DNA of 10,151 nt from an uncultured Devosia sp. Its GTDB lineage: Bacteria > Pseudomonadota > Alphaproteobacteria > Rhizobiales > Devosiaceae. The first letter of the stretch is position 1, and the number at the start of each line of letters is the position of its first letter. The position numbers and the translations under genes are program-made. The stretch lies in the NCBI GenBank assembly GCA_946481445.1, contig CAMLOA010000034.1, positions 1 to 10,151 on the forward strand, read 5' to 3'. Under the pieces are notes generated by a model. The model was given only the letters and a program-made list of their open reading frames with translations, was not told the DNA's origin and did no database searches. Shown one piece after another: positions 2,202 to 10,151 of this stretch.

Positions 2202-4763
2202 TCAGGTGCGCGGCTTGAGGTTTTCCGGGTCGTAGAGCGGCTTGTAGCCGACGCCTGCGACCTCTGCCGGGTAGGTTTCGCCGAAATATTCCAGCGTCAC
2301 CTGGCGGCCGACCTGACAATAGCTCCAGGGAAGATAGGCCAGGGCGATATTCTTGCCGATAGTGGGACCATAGGCGACCGAGGTCGTGTAGGACCGGCGA
2401 CCCAGCTCGTCGACCAGCGTCTCGCCCGTCGTCGGGTCCATCACCGGCATGGTGCCGACCGGGTAGCGGGCCACGCCCTTGCTGTCGACATTGTTGGTCA
2501 TGACCAGCGTGCAGAGCATGGCAGGCTGGTGTTCGCGGGCGCGATATTCGACATGCTTGGCCTTGCCGCGGAAGTCGGCTTCCTTGACCTTGGGGCGGGC
2601 GAGGTCGGCTTCGAGCAGATTGTATTCTGTAAGAAGGTCCGCATTCTGCAGGCGCAGGCTCTTTTCCATGCGGCGGGTATTGGCATAGGTCTCGACACCC
2701 ACGGCGATGACACCGGTCGAGCGCAGCGCATCCCAGACGGCGAGGCCGTCCTCGTAGGCCATGTGCAATTCCCAGCCCTGTTCGCCAACGTAGGAAATGC
2801 GGAAGGCCATGACGGACTTGCCGGCAATGGTGAGCGGCTTGATCGCGGCAAAGGGGAAGTTTTCCGGCAGCAGGACCGATGGGTCTTCCACCAGCTTGCT
2901 GAGATTTTCCCGCGCATTGGGACCCCAGATGCCGATAGTGATGTTCTTTTCGGTCACGTCGGTGATGGTGGCGTCAAAACCGCGATCCTGGGCGACGCGG
3001 CGCATGTACTGCAGGTCGCGCGGGCCGGCATCTGCGCCATTGATCATGCGAATGCGGTCGGCCATGCGGATGACGGTGAAGTCGGCCCGCACCATGCCTT
3101 CGTCGTCGAGGAAGTGGGTGTAGATGCCCTTGCCGATATTGGCGTCGCCACCGATCTTGGCGGCACAGAGCCACTCCATCAGCTCGACATGGTCGGGGCC
3201 CTCGATGTCGCAGATATAGAAGTGCGACAGGTTGATGATGCCGCAGTTCTCGGTCATTTCGAGATGCTCGGCATTGGAGACGCGCCAGAAGTGGCGGTTG
3301 TCCCATTCGTTCTCGCGCACCGGGACGCGGTCGCCGAATTTCTCCAGCAGGTGCTCGTTGGCGGCATAGCCATGGGCGCGTTCCCAGCCGCCCAGTTCCA
3401 TGAAGTAGCCGCCCAGTTCCTTCTCGCGCTCGTAGAAGGGCGAGCGGCGGATATTGCGGCCCCCGGAGAAGGGCTCGCGCGGATGCACCGGCGGATTGTA
3501 GATCTTCATCGCCGTTTCGGTGCAGCGCTCTTCGATGAACTTCTCGGTGAGCTGGAACGGGGCGAAGCGGGCATAGTCGATCTTGTTGTGGTCGATGGCC
3601 GTGCGGCCATCGGTCATCCAGTCGGCGATGAGCTTGCCCATGCCCGGGCCGTCCTTGACCCAGATGCCCACGGCATACCAGAGGCCGCGCACCTTCTGGC
3701 TTTCGCCCATGGAGGGACCGCCATCGGTCGTGGTTTGCAGCAGGCCGTTGAAGGAATGGCCCTCATTGTAGCCGAGCTCGCCCAGGATCGGCGTCAGCTC
3801 CATGGCGCGTTCGAGCGGTTCCATGACCTGCTCGAGGTCAAGGTCGCGCTGCGACGGCGACAGGCGCGCCTGTTCCTTTTCGAGCAGGTCGCGCGGATGC
3901 ACGAGGCGCGGATTGTGCTCCTCGTAGTAGCCCCATTCGATCTGGCCGCCTTCGGCGGTCTTCGGATCGCCGGTATCGCGCAGATAGGCCGAGTTGCCTT
4001 GGTCGCGCAGCAGCGGGTAGCCGATCTCCTTGCCGGTATCGGCGAAACCGTCGAACGGACCGAAGAAGGTGAGTGGATGGTCGACAGGCATGACCGGCAG
4101 GTCCTCGCCTGCCATCTCGGCGATGAGCCGGCCCCAGAGGCCGGCGCAGACCACGACGTGGTCGGCCATGATGGTCCCGCGATCGGTGACCACGCCCTTG
4201 ATGCGACCATCCTCGATGACCAGCGACTTGGCCGAGGTATTGGCGAAAGCCTGCAGCTTGCCCGCGCTGACCGCCTGATCGACCAGTTTGCCGGCAACGG
4301 TCTGCGAGCGCGGGATGACGAGGCCGGCATCCGGGTCCCAGAGGCCGCCCTGGATCATGCTCTCCTCGACCAGCGGCATCTTTTCCTTGATCTCGGCAGG
4401 GTCGATGAGGCGGGCGCGGGTGCCAAAAGCCTTGCCCGAGGCGACCTTGCGCTTGATCTCGTCCATGCGTTCGTCGTCGCCGACGCGGGCCACTTCAAGG
4501 CCACCGACACGGGCGTAGTGGCCCATCTTGTCGAAGAAGTCGATGGAGTAAAGCGTGGTCCAGCAGCTCAGGAAGTCATGGCTGGTGGTGTAGCAGAAGT
4601 CGGAGGCGTGGGCGGTGGAGCCGATATCGGTGGGGATGCCGGACTTGTCGATGCCTACGATATCGTCCCAGCCGCGCTCGACCAGATGGTGCGCGATGGA
4701 CGCGCCAACAATCCCGCCCAGTCCGATGATGACGACCCGCGCCTTCTCGGGAAACGCTGCCAT
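2202..4763 (-). CDS. FAD-dependent N-demethylase fused to a GcvT folate domain (dimethylglycine dehydrogenase/oxidase-like)
   Basis: An 853-residue cytoplasmic enzyme of the dimethylglycine dehydrogenase/oxidase family; no signal peptide is seen. Domains in order: FAD-binding DAO fold (about 8-385, dinucleotide motif IGLGGIVGAS at 13-22), a central linker domain (about 388-440), the GcvT folate-binding domain (about 440-735) and the GcvT C-terminal barrel (about 745-845). GSTAH (48-52) matches the family motif whose His carries covalent FAD, so His52 is the predicted attachment residue. By comparison with Arthrobacter globiformis dimethylglycine oxidase recalled from memory, His229 and Tyr260 fall where its active-site His and Tyr lie. 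Asp561 falls where its folate-site Asp lies. SYVGEQGWEL (657-666) is the typical GcvT block. The reaction is oxidation of an N-methyl group with capture of the carbon as methylene-THF. It shares an operon with etfBA, which favours a dehydrogenase using ETF over an oxidase. Dimethylglycine is the best guess; sarcosine or another N-methyl amino acid is possible. Confidence 0.88.
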   Translation of the reverse strand: MAAFPEKARVVIIGLGGIVGASIAHHLVERGWDDIVGIDKSGIPTDIGSTAHASDFCYTTSHDFLSCWTTLYSIDFFDKMGHYARVGGLEVARVGDDERMDEIKRKVASGKAFGTRARLIDPAEIKEKMPLVEESMIQGGLWDPDAGLVIPRSQTVAGKLVDQAVSAGKLQAFANTSAKSLVIEDGRIKGVVTDRGTIMADHVVVCAGLWGRLIAEMAGEDLPVMPVDHPLTFFGPFDGFADTGKEIGYPLLRDQGNSAYLRDTGDPKTAEGGQIEWGYYEEHNPRLVHPRDLLEKEQARLSPSQRDLDLEQVMEPLERAMELTPILGELGYNEGHSFNGLLQTTTDGGPSMGESQKVRGLWYAVGIWVKDGPGMGKLIADWMTDGRTAIDHNKIDYARFAPFQLTEKFIEERCTETAMKIYNPPVHPREPFSGGRNIRRSPFYEREKELGGYFMELGGWERAHGYAANEHLLEKFGDRVPVRENEWDNRHFWRVSNAEHLEMTENCGIINLSHFYICDIEGPDHVELMEWLCAAKIGGDANIGKGIYTHFLDDEGMVRADFTVIRMADRIRMINGADAGPRDLQYMRRVAQDRGFDATITDVTEKNITIGIWGPNARENLSKLVEDPSVLLPENFPFAAIKPLTIAGKSVMAFRISYVGEQGWELHMAYEDGLAVWDALRSTGVIAVGVETYANTRRMEKSLRLQNADLLTEYNLLEADLARPKVKEADFRGKAKHVEYRAREHQPAMLCTLVMTNNVDSKGVARYPVGTMPVMDPTTGETLVDELGRRSYTTSVAYGPTIGKNIALAYLPWSYCQVGRQVTLEYFGETYPAEVAGVGYKPLYDPENLKPRT

Positions 4764-4843: not shown

Positions 4844-5728
4844 TTACCAGAGTTGGGGGACAGGCAGGCCCCGCCGCATATGCGCGGCAAGCAATGTGTT
4901 GTGCATGAGACTCATGATGGTCATTGGTCCCACGCCACCCGGCACGGGCGTAATGGCGCCAGCATTGACCGACGCTGCCGCGAATTCAACATCACCCACC
5001 AGCGCCTTCTTGTCGCCCTTGATCACCCTGCTGGTGCCGACATCGATCACGGTGGCGCCCGGCTTGATCCATTCCCCCTTGATCATTTCTGCCTGACCCA
5101 CGGCGGCCACGACGATATCGGCCTGCCGCACCTTTTCGGCCAGGTCCCGCGTGCGCGAATGGGCGATCGTCACGGTGCAGTTCTGGGCCAGCAGCAATTG
5201 CGCCATCGGCTTGCCGACCAGGATCGATCTACCCACGACGATGGCATCAAGGCCGGATAGGTTGCCCAGGGCCGACTTGAGCAGCATCAGGCAGCCCAGC
5301 GGCGTGCAGGAGACCAGTCCCGGCAGGCCGGATGCCAGCCGGCCGGCGCTCGATGGATGCAGGCCATCGACATCCTTGGCCGGATCGATGGCCTCGATAA
5401 CCTCGAGCGAATCCAGATGCCCCGGCAGCGGCAGCTGCACGAGGATGCCGTCCACCGCATCATCGGCGTTGAGCGCAGCGATCAGGTCGAGCAGCTCGCC
5501 CTGGCTGGCATCGGCCGGCAGGACATGTTCGAAGCTGGCCATGCCGAGCTGACGGGCCATCTTGCCCTTGCTGCGAACATAGATCTCGCTGGCCGGGTCG
5601 GTTCCGACAAGTACGACGGCCAATCCGGGTACACGCCCGGACCGTCGCGTCAGTTCGGGAATGCAGCCGGTGATCTTTTCACCCAAGCTGCCCGCATAGG
5701 CTTTGCCGTCAATAATCCGAGCACTCAT
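4844..5728 (-). CDS. folD: FolD, bifunctional methylene-THF dehydrogenase / methenyl-THF cyclohydrolase
   Basis: The protein has 294 residues, normal for FolD. It oxidises 5,10-methylene-THF with NAD(P) and hydrolyses the methenyl form to 10-formyl-THF. The catalytic Tyr-xxx-Lys is seen as YVRSK (Tyr50, Lys54). The substrate-side motifs are VQLPLP (97-102, Gln98) and DVDGLHP (119-125). The dinucleotide site has [11 protein letters not shown] (164-174), and the C-terminal block is [17 protein letters not shown] (261-277). The start at 5728 is chosen because the protein then begins [10 protein letters not shown] as in the family; an upstream in-frame ATG would add 41 unrelated residues. Lying between purU and the demethylase gene, it should act on the methylene-THF that the demethylase makes. 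It may be a second folD dedicated to catabolism, which the window cannot show. Confidence 0.96.
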
Positions 5729-5754
5729 CTGGCCACCAGAAACAATCGGGTTGA

Positions 5755-5780: not shown

Positions 5781-6638
5781 TCAGTTCGTGAAGACGACCG
5801 TACGGTGATGATTGAGCATGACCCGGCCCTCCAGGTGATACTTGACCGCACGGGCCAGCACGCGGGACTCGATATCGCGACCGGTAGCCACGAAATCTTC
5901 CGAAGTCATGGCGTGGCTGACGCGCTCGGTTTCCTGCTCGATGATCGGGCCTTCGTCGAGGTCCGCGGTCACGTAGTGACCGGTCGCGCCGATCAGCTTC
6001 ACACCGCGCTCATGCGCCTGGTGATAGGGCTTGGCGCCCTTGAAGCTTGGCAGGAAGGAGTGGTGGATATTGATGACCATGCCGAACAGGCGGTTGGACA
6101 GTTCATTGGACAGGACCTGCATGTAGCGGGCCAACACAACCAGTTCCGACCCGGTCTCCTTGACCAGCTCGATCAACTGCTCTTCGCGCTCGGCCTTGTT
6201 CTCCTTGGTCACCGGCCAATAGTAGAACGGGATGTCCTCCTGCTGCGCCGTCCGCCGGGAATCCTCGTGGTTGGAGACGATCGCGGCAACCTCGGCATTC
6301 AGCCAGCCGACCTTGATCTGGTAGAGCAGGTGCAAGAGGCCATGGTCGAATTTGGAGACCATGATGATGATCTTGGGCCGGCGCGACAGGTCCTCGATCT
6401 TGAGCTTCATGTCGAAGCGGTCGACGGAGGGCTTGAGCGCCAGTTCGAGCATCTCCCGGCTGGTCGTTGCCGGCACTGCAAAGGCGATGCGGATGAAGAG
6501 CTGGTTGGTCTGCCGGTCGCAGAACTGGTTGGACTCCAGAATATTTGCGCCACGCGAGGCCAGCGCGGTCGTCAGCGCTGCGACAATGCCCGGCTGGTCG
6601 AGGCAGCTCAGCTTGAGAATGAACTTGTTCTCGGTCAT
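5781..6638 (-). CDS. purU: PurU, formyltetrahydrofolate deformylase
   Basis: The protein has 285 residues, the usual PurU length. It hydrolyses 10-formyl-THF to formate and THF in the cytoplasm. An N-terminal ACT domain (about 5-85, with [20 protein letters not shown]) is followed by a formyltransferase-like hydrolase domain (about 88-265). The catalytic triad of the PurN/PurU fold is visible as Asn190 and His192 in [11 protein letters not shown] and Asp228 in [17 protein letters not shown] (217-224) is the conserved strand before the Asp. In E. coli PurU balances folate pools for purine and glycine synthesis. Here, between etfA and folD in a demethylation operon, it most likely disposes of excess formyl groups and frees THF for the next turnover. 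The gene starts 31 bases after the etfA stop with only a weak GAG-type ribosome binding site. Confidence 0.96.
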
Positions 6639-6669: not shown

Positions 6670-7599
6670 TCAGAGCTGCCGCTCAAGTTCCGGGATCAAT
6701 TCGAAGAGGTCGCCAACAAGGCCATAATCCGCGATCTGGAAGATCGGGGCGTCCTCGTCCTTGTTGATGGCGACGATCACCTTGGCTTCCTTCATGCCCG
6801 CCAGGTGCTGGATGGCGCCCGAAATGCCGATGGCGATGTAGAGGTCCGGCGCGACGATCTTGCCCGTCTGCCCGACCTGCCAGTCGTTGGGCGCGTAACC
6901 CGCGTCCACCGCCGCCCGTGATGCACCCACCGCGGCACCCAGCTTGTCGGCCACGGGCAGGATGATCTCCCGGAATTTCTCCAGGGAGCCCAGGGCACGG
7001 CCACCCGAGATCACCACGCGCGCCGAGCCCAGTTCCGGCCGCTCGCTCTTGGCCATGCGGTTCTCGATGAACATGGAGAGCCCGCGATCCGCCGGGGCGT
7101 CCAAGACCTCGACCGGCGCGCCGGACCCGGTCACAGCGGGCGCGAAGCCGGCCGTCCGCACCGTGATGACCTTCTTGGCATCGGTCGCCTGCACCGTCTG
7201 GATGGCATTGCCGGCATAGATCGGACGCTTGAACGTATCGGGCGAAACGACTTCGACGATCTCGGAGACCTGCATCACGTCGAGCAGCGCGGCGACGCGG
7301 GGAAAGACGTTTTTGCCCGTCGTCGTCGCTGCAGCCACGAACACGTCATAACCCGAAGCGATGGAGACGATGAGGTCAGCCAACGGCTCGGCCAGTTGAT
7401 TGGCGAGCGCGTCGCTTTCGGCGAGCAACACCTTGCGCACGCCGGACAGGCCGGCGGCGGCAGCGGCGGCGCCCTGGGCGCCCTTGCCAGCAACGAGGAT
7501 GTCGATGTCGCCACCAATCCTGGAGGCTGCAGTCAGTGCCCGCGCCGTCAGCTCCGACAGGGTCGCGTTATCGTGTTCGGCGAGAAGAAGAATTGCCAT
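6670..7599 (-). CDS. etfA: Electron transfer flavoprotein alpha subunit
   Basis: The protein has 309 residues, matching bacterial EtfA. It forms the FAD-carrying half of the ETF heterodimer, which takes electrons from dehydrogenases and passes them to ETF:quinone oxidoreductase at the membrane. The C-terminal FAD domain is clear: the stretch from GRALGS (200-205) through [15 protein letters not shown] (221-235) and QVGQTGKIV (241-249), then the family signature [16 protein letters not shown] (253-268) and NKDEDAPIF (279-287). The N-terminal domain I is variable, as is usual. It lies 20 bases after etfB and has a GAGGA ribosome binding site 7 bases before its ATG. Sharing an operon with a demethylase of the dimethylglycine dehydrogenase family points to that enzyme as the electron donor. 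No ETF:quinone oxidoreductase gene is in the window, so that partner must lie elsewhere. Confidence 0.97.
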
Positions 7600-7619: not shown

Positions 7620-8369
7620 TCAGATGACGCGGGCTTCGTTGCGCAGCTTGTCGACCAGTTCGGCGACGTTGGCGACCTTGATGCCGGCCTTGCGAGTCCC
7701 CGGCTCCTCGGTCCTCAGCACCTTGAGGCGCGGCTCGGTCGACACGCCATAGTCAGCGGCAGTCTTTTCCTCGAGCGGCTTCTTCTTGGCCTTCATGATG
7801 TTGGGCAGGGAGGCGAAGCGCGGCTCGTTGAGGCGTAGGTCGGCCGTAACGACAGCCGGCAGCTTGACCTCGATCGACTGCAGGCCACCATCGACCTCGC
7901 GCAACACGGTGGCCTTGTCGTCGCCAAGGTCGACCTTGGAGGCGAACGTCGCCTGCGACCAGCCCAGCAGGGCCGACAGCATCTGCCCGGTCTGGTTGCA
8001 GTCGTCGTCGATCGCCTGCTTGCCCAGGATGACGAGGCGCGGGGCCTCGGCCTCGACCACGCCCTTGAGAAGCTTTGCGACAGTCAGCGGCTCGACCACG
8101 TCATCGACATTGATCAGGATGCCGCGATCCGCGCCCATCGCCATGGCGGTGCGCAACGTGTCCTGCGCCTGTGCCGGCCCGATGGAAACCACCACGATCT
8201 CGCTGACCTTGCCAGCCTCCTTGAGCCGGATGGCCTCCTCGACCGCGATCTCGTCAAAGGGGTTCATCGACATCTTGACGTTGGTCAGGTCAACACCCGA
8301 CCCATCCGCCTTGACGCGGATCTTCACGTTGAAATCGACCACGCGCTTTACAGGCACCAGAACTTTCAT
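7620..8369 (-). CDS. etfB: Electron transfer flavoprotein beta subunit
   Basis: The protein has 249 residues beginning [12 protein letters not shown], the standard EtfB start. EtfB carries the AMP site and the docking surface of ETF. The AMP-binding block [16 protein letters not shown] is at residues 115-130. The recognition-loop sequence [10 protein letters not shown] (188-197) is intact; in the human protein this loop, with its anchoring Leu, grips partner dehydrogenases. It is thus a canonical electron-accepting ETF rather than a bifurcating type. An ATG three codons earlier (8378) is in frame. The GAGGGA element directly abuts that codon but lies 9 bases from the ATG at 8369, so 8369 is preferred. 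This is the first gene of the five-gene minus-strand operon. The conserved block at 8400-8443 lies just upstream and is the probable promoter or operator. Confidence 0.96.
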
Positions 8370-8384: not shown

Positions 8385-8399
8385 AATCTTGGCACGGAG

Positions 8400-8443
8400 C
8401 ATTGCGACACTAATTGTCCTCTGCACAGAACGTTTGCGTCAAA
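8400..8443 (-). promoter_or_regulatory. Promoter/operator block upstream of etfB, shared with soxB
   Basis: On the minus strand the block begins TTTGACGCAAA, continues through CTGTGC and ends TGTCGCAATG, 30 bases before the etfB start codon. A near-copy lies before soxB at 9614-9656. With one gap, 34 of 44 columns match, concentrated at the two ends and in the central CTGTGC. Within the block TGACGCAAA and TGTCGCAAT read as direct half-sites 32 bases apart, about three helical turns, as is common for AraC-family operators. The first half-site contains TTGACG, a good -35 hexamer, with GACAAT 18 bases further as a possible -10. The block lies in the 125-bp divergent region, so it could also influence the regulator gene on the other strand. 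Which protein binds is inferred. Confidence 0.7.
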
Positions 8444-8483
8444 TCCGGATTAGCGATACGACATTGCCGGAAAGAATTGCCGC

Positions 8484-8489
8484 AAGGGG
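8484..8489 (+). promoter_or_regulatory. Ribosome binding site of the GlxA-type regulator
   Basis: AAGGGG is 5 bases before the ATG at 8495. It supports this start over the in-frame ATG at 8414, which would add 27 unrelated residues encoded across the conserved promoter block. Confidence 0.65.
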
Positions 8490-8494
8490 ATGCG

Positions 8495-9550
8495 ATGGAC
8501 GCTAAGGTGAGGGGCAGCCGGCCCAGCGCGGCAACATCGCGCGTCTACAAGCCCCGGCCCGATGGGCTCAGGCTTTCTGTCGGCTTCATCCTCGCCAAGC
8601 GCTTCACGCTTTGTGCCTTCGCCAATTTTGTCGACGTGCTGCGTCTTGCCGCCGACGAAGGCGATCGCAGCCGCCCCATCATGTGCGGCTGGACCGTATT
8701 GTCCGACACGATGAGCGCCGTTCCTTCCAGCAGCGGCATCACCGTGCAGCCCAATGAACGCCTGGGTGACCCCACCAAGTTCGACTACATCGTCGTCATT
8801 GGCGGAGTCATGGACGACATGTCGGGCCTCGGCCAGGAATATACCGCCTATCTGGAACGGGCCGCAGCAGCCGGTGTCCCGTTGGTGGGCGTTTGCACCG
8901 GTGGCTTCCTGTTGCACAAGGCCGGCCTGATGAATGGCTATCGCTGCTGCGTCAGTTGGTTCCACCACGCCGACTTCCTCGAGCAGTTCGACGGGCTCGA
9001 CCCGGTTTCCGATCAGATCTTCATCGACGACGGTGACCGCCTCACCTGTTCAGGCGGGGCGAGTTCCGCGCATCTGGCAGCTTATCTGGTCGAACGGCAT
9101 GTTGGCCGCGCCCAGGCCAGCAAGAGCCTCCACATCATGATCATCGATGACGCCATGCGGCCCGAAAAACCGCAGCCCGGCGTATCAATGGACATCTCCA
9201 CCCGCGATCCGATGGTGATGCGGGCCCTGCTCCTGATGCAGCAGAATATCGACAATCCGCTGTCGGTGTCGGAATTGGCCCGCCGCATGGGCCACAGCAA
9301 GCGCCAGCTGGAGCGCCACTTCCGGGCCGCCCTGGGCGCGTCGCCGCAGGCGGCATTCCTGCAGATCCGGCTGACCTTCGCTCATCACCTCATCGAGACC
9401 ACGGACAAGTCCGTCGCGGCCATCGCGGTGGAATGCGGCTTCTGCGACTCTTCCCACCTGAGCCGCATGTTCCGGCAACGCTTCAACCGCACCCCGCACG
9501 AAATCCGCAAGCAGGCAGCCACCCCTGCCCTCGTGGCCGAGGCCGCCTGA
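8495..9550 (+). CDS. GlxA-family regulator: DJ-1/PfpI-like domain plus AraC DNA-binding domain (GbdR-like)
   Basis: The protein has 351 residues. Residues about 25-215 form a DJ-1/PfpI (class I glutamine amidotransferase-like) domain with the nucleophile-elbow motif GVCTGGF (132-138, Cys134) and a later SGGASSAHLA block (186-195). Residues about 240-338 form the AraC/XylS domain with two helix-turn-helices, the second around AIAVECGFCDSSHLSRMFRQ (309-328), ending in RTPHEIRK (332-339). This architecture is that of GbdR (glycine betaine/dimethylglycine), SouR (sarcosine) and ArgR/CdhR of Pseudomonas, which activate catabolic genes when they bind a small ligand. It is divergent from etfB and 137 bases before soxB, so it is probably the activator of both units. 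The ligand is likely dimethylglycine, sarcosine or a related compound; this is inferred from context only. The start at 8495 follows from the ribosome binding site. Confidence 0.9.
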   Translation: MDAKVRGSRPSAATSRVYKPRPDGLRLSVGFILAKRFTLCAFANFVDVLRLAADEGDRSRPIMCGWTVLSDTMSAVPSSSGITVQPNERLGDPTKFDYIVVIGGVMDDMSGLGQEYTAYLERAAAAGVPLVGVCTGGFLLHKAGLMNGYRCCVSWFHHADFLEQFDGLDPVSDQIFIDDGDRLTCSGGASSAHLAAYLVERHVGRAQASKSLHIMIIDDAMRPEKPQPGVSMDISTRDPMVMRALLLMQQNIDNPLSVSELARRMGHSKRQLERHFRAALGASPQAAFLQIRLTFAHHLIETTDKSVAAIAVECGFCDSSHLSRMFRQRFNRTPHEIRKQAATPALVAEAA

Positions 9551-9561
9551 CTGTCGCATTT

Positions 9562-9578
9562 GTTGGGCTGAGCCCGAC
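9562..9578 (+). terminator. Hairpin after the regulator gene, possible terminator
   Basis: GTTGGGC and GCCCGAC form a 7-bp stem (one G-U pair as RNA) around a UGA loop, starting 12 bases after the regulator stop. No T-tract follows directly; a TTTTT run comes 20 bases later (9599-9603) behind a weaker CGCC/GGCG stem. It probably limits read-through from the regulator into soxB, so that soxB depends on its own promoter block. The dyad is also short enough to be a protein-binding site. Confidence 0.4.
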
Positions 9579-9613
9579 GCGCTTTAGCCGCCTTGGCGTT
9601 TTTGTGCGATCCG

Positions 9614-9656
9614 TTTGACGCAAATGTCCTGTGCTGCGGCGGGTAATGTCGCAATG
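9614..9656 (+). promoter_or_regulatory. Promoter/operator block upstream of soxB, shared with etfB
   Basis: The block starts TTTGACGCAAA, contains CTGTGC and ends TGTCGCAATG, 31 bases before the soxB ATG. It is the second copy of the etfB block, in the same orientation relative to its gene and at the same distance to within one base. Here the half-sites TGACGCAA and TGTCGCAA are 31 bases apart. TTGACG is again a possible -35, but the best -10 candidate (GGTAAT) lies 21 bases away, too far for an unaided sigma-70 promoter. This fits a promoter that needs an activator. Confidence 0.7.
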
Positions 9657-9687
9657 ATACCTCAACACTAGTCGTTCGAGGTAGGCG

Positions 9688-10151
9688 ATGACCCGCTTTT
9701 CGTTCCCGACACTGCTCGGCAATGCCCTGACGGGTCACAAGAACTGGCAGCCGCAATGGCCCGATGCCCAGCCCAAGGCGGAGTATGACGTGATCATCGT
9801 CGGTGCTGGTGGTCATGGCCTCGGCGCCGCCTACTATCTCGCCAAGGAACACGGCATCACCAATGTCGCAGTCATCGACAAGGGTTGGCTGGGCGGCGGC
9901 AATACCGGCCGCAACACGACCATCATCCGCTCCAACTACCTCTATGACGAAAGCGCGATGCTCTACGAGCACTCGATGAAGCTCTGGGAGGGCCTGACGC
10001 AGGAGCTCAACTACAACGTCATGTTCTCCCAGCGCGGCGTGATGATGCTGGCGCATAATGTCCACGACGTGCAGAGCTTCAAGCGCCACGTGCATTCCAA
10101 CCGGCTGAACGGCATCGACAACGAGTGGCTGACGCCCGAACAGGCCAAGGA
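9688..10151 (+). CDS. soxB: Sarcosine oxidase beta subunit SoxB, N-terminal 154 residues (cut by window end)
   Basis: This is the start of the FAD-containing catalytic subunit of heterotetrameric sarcosine oxidase, which oxidises sarcosine to glycine and gives methylene-THF plus hydrogen peroxide. Diagnostic are the N-terminal SGHK-like lead (here [10 protein letters not shown], 15-24), the dinucleotide motif [20 protein letters not shown] (35-54), and [17 protein letters not shown] (69-85), which is highly conserved in SoxB. The covalent FMN His lies further on and is not in the window; full-length SoxB has roughly 415 residues. The ATG at 9688 has GAGGT 5 bases upstream. The partner genes soxD, soxA and soxG should follow beyond the edge. 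Its methylene-THF product can enter the FolD-PurU route encoded on the other strand. Confidence 0.96.

Follow-up and report, generated by a model that had tools for sequence, protein, structure and literature searches.

Predicted tandem operator-promoters on either side of a GATase1/AraC-family regulator gene between dimethylglycine and sarcosine demethylation genes

The locus studied here, a stretch of 10,151 nucleotides from an uncultured Devosia sp. (hereafter the window, meaning the whole stretch analyzed), has a similar block of DNA before each of two operons that flank a regulator gene, raising the question of what the block is and which protein reads it. Leftward, on the minus strand, are etfB (7620..8369; Pfam ETF), the first gene of the divergent operon, etfA (6670..7599; Pfam), purU encoding formyltetrahydrofolate deformylase (5781..6638; above its NCBIfam cut-off), folD (4844..5734; above the NF010785 cut-off), and a gene for an 853-aa dimethylglycine dehydrogenase-like FAD/folate enzyme (dmgdh; 2202..4763; DAO, FAO_M, GCV_T, and GCV_T_C domains). 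Rightward, soxB (9688..10151, plus strand), for the sarcosine oxidase beta subunit, continues beyond the end of the window; its best NCBIfam model is TIGR01373 and, as a partial gene, it scores under the cut-off of that model. These assignments agree with the preliminary description, as does the position of an AraC-type regulator gene between the two sites, with both flanking operons marked by conserved sites at their promoters. The regulator (8495..9550, plus strand; HTH_18 and DJ-1/PfpI in Pfam, GlxA family, GbdR-like) has domains PF01965, PF12833, and PF00165 within 8495-9547 and belongs to the GATase1-like AraC-family regulators of the GbdR/CdhR/ArgR type. Its best NCBIfam model is GbdR, but the score of 191.8 bits is under the curated cut-off of 480 for the GbdR equivalog (NF052371), and the regulator is therefore not named GbdR.

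The two copies of the block, at 8443-8400 on the minus strand and 9614-9656 on the plus strand, are identical at 34 of 44 columns with one gap when the alignment is recomputed, and TTTGACGCAAA, CTGTGC, and TGTCGCAATG are common to both, as had been claimed. They end 30 bases from the etfB ATG (8369) and 31 bases from the soxB ATG (9688), and the half-sites originally proposed within them start 32 bases apart before etfB and 31 bases apart before soxB. Aligned locally, the upstream regions of the two genes give a score of 53, a value reached in none of 5,000 dinucleotide shuffles (maximum of 44; Gumbel p about 3e-7) and above the best of 4,853 pairs of window fragments used as a real-sequence control (47). 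Contrary to the view that no similarity exists outside the blocks, the alignment runs on through ATCCG, and an extra half-site precedes the block by 20 bases in both copies, as TGTCGTA on the etfB side (8463-8457, minus strand) and as a weak TGGCGTT at the same offset on the soxB side (9594-9600, plus strand). That two copies lie within 1.2 kb might be taken to indicate a recent duplication or a repetitive element, but only short constrained columns are common to the copies, the spacer has diverged, and the site is found again at orthologous positions and persists where a different gene stands first, making such an origin extremely improbable. The block was correctly read as selected regulatory DNA.

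Orthologous upstream regions, which had been put forward as a test, contain the site. In 75 of 76 loci of relatives, as in the window, the gap from the regulator gene to the first divergent gene contains a tandem repeat; in the sole exception, L068, this gap contains N. The loci are drawn from the best 80 of 341 relatives from the regulator search, a sample that covers Aureimonas, Devosia, Rhodobacteraceae, Thalassospira, sphingomonads, and others; four without a scored divergent gene start (L029, L032, L057, and L065) are excluded from the count of 76, as are L081 and L082. Sites were defined by agreement with TGACGCAAWYRTYCTRT at 14 or more of 17 positions, between the regulator and the first gene, on the strand reading towards that gene only. 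The site is kept whichever gene stands first on the divergent side (etfB in 48 loci, dmgdh in 17, and purU in 11). Its consensus is a direct repeat, TGTCGTA-N4-TnAT followed by TGACGCA-N4-TYCTRT, with both halves fitting one head-to-tail pattern, TGWCGYA-N4-TnMT, and a period of 22 bases, the approximately two helical turns that separate the direct repeats of tandem AraC-type operators. The proximal half-site served as the anchor of the alignment, hence its own conservation is partly due to selection of the sites; evidence independent of the anchor comes from the distal half-site, the -10 region, the held-out loci, and the extra pairs described below. The distal core TGTCGTA played no part in anchoring; of 76 aligned divergent regions, counting the window, 73 have it without a mismatch, and among the 39 non-redundant regions it is unaltered in 36. 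Across the non-redundant regions, T at +11 is invariant in each half (39/39) and T at +14 is found in 35/39 and 39/39 in the two halves.

In the window, the predicted etfB operator comprises a distal half-site, TGTCGTATCGCTAATCC (8447..8463, minus strand; core TGTCGTA), and a proximal half-site, TGACGCAAACGTTCTGT (8425..8441, minus strand), which is the left part of the block as first described. The predicted soxB operator has a proximal half-site, TGACGCAAATGTCCTGT (9616..9632, plus strand; 20.6 bits), and, at the same 22-base offset, a weak distal half-site, TGGCGTTTTTGTGCGAT (9594..9610, plus strand; profile score of -4.8 bits). The distal half-site sits just outside the block, which therefore held only the proximal one, and the half-site spacing first given as 31-32 bases is replaced by a conserved repeat spacing of 22 bases. 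Among relatives, the 22-base pair is at a constant position in many Rhodobacteraceae soxB promoters, and the period is 21 bases in a few soxB promoters; the distal half-site is not recognizable in the Aureimonas soxB promoters of L001, L002, L004, and L005 and is weak in that of L008. In a test of 24 soxB promoter sequences, where the signal in several Aureimonas loci comes from the proximal half-site, the site was matched in 0 of 200 shuffles for 21 sequences and in 1 of 200 for the other three. The proximal half-site is at -68 to -80 in all 15 non-redundant soxB promoters, whereas on the divergent side the anchor varies from -74 to -483 in relatives. The equal distance of the blocks from both start codons thus holds in the window but not in general, and on the divergent side it is not conserved. 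An exact match to the half-site also occurs inside etfB (8068-8082, minus strand), with a close one in genome G001, and might be no more than a consequence of conserved codons.

The right end of the block has a different character. Across 69 non-redundant promoters (45 divergent, 14 soxB, and 10 held-out), the match to TATAAT peaks 37 bases from the start of the proximal half-site; A2 and T6 occur together in 43% of promoters at offset 37 and in 30% at 38; elsewhere between offsets 18 and 63, the two are combined in no more than 16%. In a fourth group, comprising 29 further promoters, the mean TATAAT match is again highest at 37, and among 15 non-redundant soxB promoters, 11 have T at 37 and 11 have A at 38. 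A hexamer at 37-38 in all four promoter groups corresponds to the arrangement at promoters of class II AraC-type activators, for which AraC and XylS promoters provide reference offsets of 36-37. The predicted -10 hexamers in the window are AATGCT for etfB (8398..8403, minus strand; offset 38, at the right end of the block) and AATGAT for soxB (9653..9658, plus strand; offset 37), matching TATAAT at 3/6 and 4/6 positions, respectively; a good -35 was not found at either promoter. Given these offsets, TGTCGCAATG contains the predicted -10. We suggest that TGTCGCAATG is mainly a -10 region and that the second half-site of the preliminary description is a misread -10. Another candidate for the etfB promoter, TTGACG-N18-GACAAT (minus strand, 8442-8413; 9/12), was rejected, its second hexamer (alignment columns 24-29) being unconserved in the divergent set and unmatched at soxB.

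The earlier arrangement, in which an AraC-type dimer sits on TGACGCAA and TGTCGCAA at 31-32 bases and needs nothing outside the block, has some appeal in that each word has at most one mismatch to the half-site and the downstream core is found in 14 of 39 divergent promoters, compared to about 1% of background positions. The half-site conserved in all clades is nevertheless the upstream one at 22 bases (the 36 exact cores above), and conservation of both half-sites at 31-32 bases is limited to those 14 promoters. The other 25 downstream words fail TGWCGYA while their GCA and following T persist, as a -10 would, and the spacing of 31 or 32 varies by one, like promoter spacers. We consider this dimer improbable. 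There is more over the -10 than a -10 needs, as TGTC precedes GCAATG, and the TGWCGYA-like words in 14 of the 39 non-redundant promoters on the divergent side (offset 32 in 11, offset 31 in three) may represent a third regulator box. The candidates in the window are TGTCGCAATGCTCCG over the etfB -10 (8395..8409, minus strand) and TGTCGCAATGATACC over the soxB -10 (9647..9661, plus strand), each with one mismatch to TGWCGYA-N4-TnMT.

Presence of the site correlates with that of the regulator across genomes. In the nearest genus, the regulator is found in 7 of 75 genomes, and the exact 17-base proximal pattern is in five of seven regulator-positive versus one of 68 regulator-negative genomes (Fisher p 7e-6). 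The one negative genome with the pattern has neither the distal half nor the pathway genes, and the two positive genomes without an exact match have the same pattern with one change at each promoter. A 39-base sequence-only profile was built from 32 sites and, in searches of the genus and of 30 other genomes, 150 candidates were scored per genome. Because the profile included sites of these clades, the searches test the number and placement of sites rather than their existence. At E < 0.01, each of the seven positive genomes has exactly two matches, one per flanking promoter; no match below this value was found in seven regulator-negative genomes (G003 and G005 to G010, taken in order of label, best E of 0.028; G002, with the chance 17-base match, was omitted). 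Weaker matches (E of 0.03 to 5), which also occur in regulator-negative genomes, were treated as chance. Of the 30 other genomes, 29 have their best match next to the regulator, and the remaining one has it upstream of soxB. Five of the 30 have a second match (up to E 0.02), by position on the soxB side in G152, G153, G154, and G157 and on the regulator side in G178. In the latter genome, some 10.5 kb separate soxB from the site of the regulator, yet soxB carries its own site (E 3.9e-5), whose center is 74 bases from the gene, compared to 67-76 in the seven genus genomes. Applied to the 80 loci, the profile identified a site in the regulator gap of 76; on the soxB side it identified nine (up to E 0.1). 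The sporadic occurrence of the regulator in the nearest genus suggests loss or transfer.

The half-site pair also recurs in loci that had no part in building the motif or the profile. These are ten plasmid records with regulators 63-76% identical to that of the window, fetched for spread from 20 plasmid records among 255 matches. All ten have a half-site pair pointing away from the regulator, unmatched in 200 shuffles per locus, and the 39-base profile with default filters recovered the gap site in four. The divergent gene is soxB in L173, L175, L177, L178, and L179, etfB in L171 and L180, and a DMT transporter gene in L176; L172 and L174 are without annotation. Plasmids of Mesorhizobium, Aminobacter, Methylobacterium, and Paracoccus encode a regulator of 63-70% identity whose gene faces directly away from soxB and the other sarcosine oxidase genes.

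Searches with the 39-base profile had pointed to a motif limited to the two flanking promoters, apart from one match away from the regulator, in a BCCT transporter/soxB gap of a Pseudosulfitobacter record; a scan for half-site pairs overturned this limit for other families. Outside the regulator gap, 58 further pairs of at least 14 bits were found in 48 of the 80 loci, in 942,755 bases searched, versus one pair in 939,664 bases of order-1 random sequence. All but one of the 58 are within 620 bases upstream of a same-strand gene of six pathway types (tblastn): gbcA-like oxygenase (16), purU (13), BCCT transporter (12), soxB (9), ABC ATPase (5), and glutathione-independent formaldehyde dehydrogenase, fdhA (2). 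No gene could be assigned to the remaining pair (L024, plus strand). Counted by genes with upstream sequence, a pair of at least 14 bits precedes 16 of 31 gbcA, 10 of 15 BCCT, 22 of 47 purU (including sites in purU-first gaps), five of five ABC, four of eight fdhA, and 10 of 25 soxB genes, and such pairs are absent before many pathway genes of the same loci. The expectation of a motif usable for finding further members is thus borne out in other Alphaproteobacteria, where 57 of 58 extra pairs precede demethylation-pathway genes. These predictions support a pathway-wide motif, with some sites perhaps used by paralogous regulators. In the Pseudosulfitobacter plasmid, the gap L181:7747-8245 has two opposed pairs, of 26.3 bits towards a BCCT transporter gene and 12.2 bits towards soxB, and similar opposed pairs are located between BCCT and purU in several loci, e.g., L035, L039, L050, and L058.

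A protein other than the regulator encoded beside the site might bind it instead. Such a factor, either a paralogous GbdR-like regulator or the LysR protein encoded at 1224-2114, could in principle be responsible, given that similar half-sites are used by such regulators, that a GbdR-like paralogue is encoded about 10 kb away in the nearest genome, and that a 43%-identical regulator has a near-identical half-site beside it. A second regulator gene of the same class is in the fetched stretch of 14 of 80 loci. In the nearest genus, however, presence of the motif tracks presence of the window-type regulator, the site is beside this regulator in 30 of 30 other genomes (29 by locus and G178 by position), and 41 of 48 loci with extra pairs have no second such gene in the stretch. 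We therefore regard another factor as a poor candidate for the flanking sites. For distant sites, seven of the 48 loci have a second regulator in the stretch and in others one may lie elsewhere, so that a paralogue may own some of these sites.

Several observations concern these paralogues. At L101:1400-1500, the 43%-identical regulator is accompanied by a divergent TRAP-type binding-protein gene (by eye) and by TGACGCAACCATTCTGT with TACGAC 38 bases on, which suggests a layout common to paralogues. Among eight order-level homologues scanned (38-49% identity), a convincing proximal half-site was found in L101 only, and these homologues were left out of the evidence for the regulator of the window. 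Before gbcA-like genes of Thalassospira and a Rhodospirillales MAG (L061-L064, L066, and L070-L072) and of Pseudovibrio (L075, L078, and L080), a pair is located about 390-520 bases from the start and is followed at 36-38 by AATAGAT or CTAGAT, which resembles a -10 well; these pairs may belong to a GbdR-like paralogue. The nearest genome has its locus in an island with gbcAB-like genes, genes for sarcosine oxidase alpha and formate dehydrogenase, and a second GbdR-like regulator. The second GATase1/AraC regulator of G001 (L169:11160-12143; C1:1843160-1844143), beside gbcAB-like genes and about 10 kb from the window-type regulator, scores 355 bits to the GbdR model, below cut-off, and is 32% identical to the window-type regulator. 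In the 34 kb of the nearest genome that were examined, only the two flanking sites exceed 14 bits, with no strong pair on the gbcAB side. An 11.0-bit pair (L169:7240-7400, minus strand) precedes a betaine-type ABC substrate-binding gene (by eye).

A broader role can be envisioned, in which a single regulator runs the pathway from glycine betaine to glycine in many Alphaproteobacteria through this motif, and the central operator would serve as class II site towards etfB, purU, or dmgdh, as the regulator's own promoter, and, through the third half-site, as a brake. Binding would then shut off the regulator gene while activating the divergent operon, and the half-site over the -10 would be a brake in Devosia, Aureimonas, and some others. 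The extra pairs before gbcA, betaine transporters, purU, and fdhA are in favor of this role. A speculative promoter for the regulator, TTGCGT and TACGAC separated by 17 bases, can be drawn inside the etfB operator (8434..8462, plus strand) by spacing only. Little is conserved between operator and regulator, which are about 31 bases apart in the window and its closest relatives, and therefore the -10 of the regulator should overlap or precede TACGACA. Against this role, the hexamers are poor, several rhizobial-type copies have TGTCGCA or another word in place of TGTCGTA, and paralogues may own distant sites. With only the two flanking sites below E 0.01 in the regulator-positive genomes of the genus, and gbcAB beside another regulator in the nearest genome, we view a single regulator for the whole pathway, and the broader role, as doubtful.

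Much better supported is the narrower prediction that the blocks are the proximal parts of two tandem operator-promoters, bound by the GATase1/AraC regulator encoded between them and subject to class II activation, which we consider very probable for both demethylation operons. Two regulator molecules would occupy the TGWCGYA-N4-TnMT half-sites in head-to-tail orientation, at the 22-base period, with the proximal half-site abutting the -35 and the -10 hexamer 37-38 bases from the start of that half-site. In XylS/Pm, likewise, the proximal repeat is positioned at -35. Loaded with its effector, probably dimethylglycine or sarcosine, the regulator would recruit RNA polymerase as a class II activator, with one promoter driving etfB-etfA-purU-folD-dmgdh and the other driving soxB and its operon. 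Demethylation of dimethylglycine and of sarcosine would thereby be switched on jointly and, in relatives, the same kind of site would act before gbcA, betaine transporters, a second purU, and formaldehyde dehydrogenase. Conservation, period, position of the -10, co-occurrence with the regulator, persistence despite a swapped first gene, and pathway enrichment are computed; binding, activation, and the related regulator that uses each distant site are what we infer.

The operator resembles those of several characterized regulators. In Pseudomonas aeruginosa, the operator of CdhR, also a GATase1/AraC regulator of a related quaternary-amine pathway, is in the caiX-cdhR gap beside the divergent regulator gene and has direct-repeat GGTCGC half-sites with a 15-base spacer; its period is 21 rather than 22 bases and, with a footprint and a mapped start, CdhR is reported to be a class I activator upstream of its promoter (excerpts of PMC5806209). 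The window-type site, in contrast, is predicted to abut the -35. The ARG box of Pseudomonas ArgR, TGTCGC-N6-GNAA in tandem with a 5-base gap and a period of 21, is similar in its TGTCGC-type tandem half-site and less conserved second repeat but differs in the downstream N6-GNAA, in pathway, and in having 61 and 41 predicted sites in one genome (excerpts of PMC10963909). Pseudomonas GbdR provides the best model for the regulator and acts in the same pathway; the difference is the low model score and the presence of a closer GbdR-like protein beside gbcAB in the nearest genome. A CG in the GbdR half-site is required for binding (excerpts of PMC5806209), and no GbdR consensus was found in excerpts of PMC12323605. 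The Pm promoter of XylS is bound, at a pair of 15-bp direct repeats that each contain a box A and a box B, by a dimer that contacts RNA polymerase (excerpts of PMC5481539), with sensor and box sequences unlike those of the window-type operator. The operator is thus a solid further example of the GbdR/CdhR/ArgR kind, with a corrected consensus, and a literature search of open-licence papers found no earlier report of it.

The finding provides a testable operator consensus and a promoter map for a regulator that accompanies dimethylglycine and sarcosine genes in Devosia, Aureimonas, Rhodobacteraceae, Thalassospira, sphingomonads, and rhizobial plasmids, and it sets right a plausible error, the reading of a -10 region as a half-site. 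The site stays with the regulator while the adjacent first gene changes. Unlike the 39-base profile, the half-site pair finds gbcA, BCCT transporter, purU, and fdhA genes, offering a tool for mapping methylated-amine regulons.
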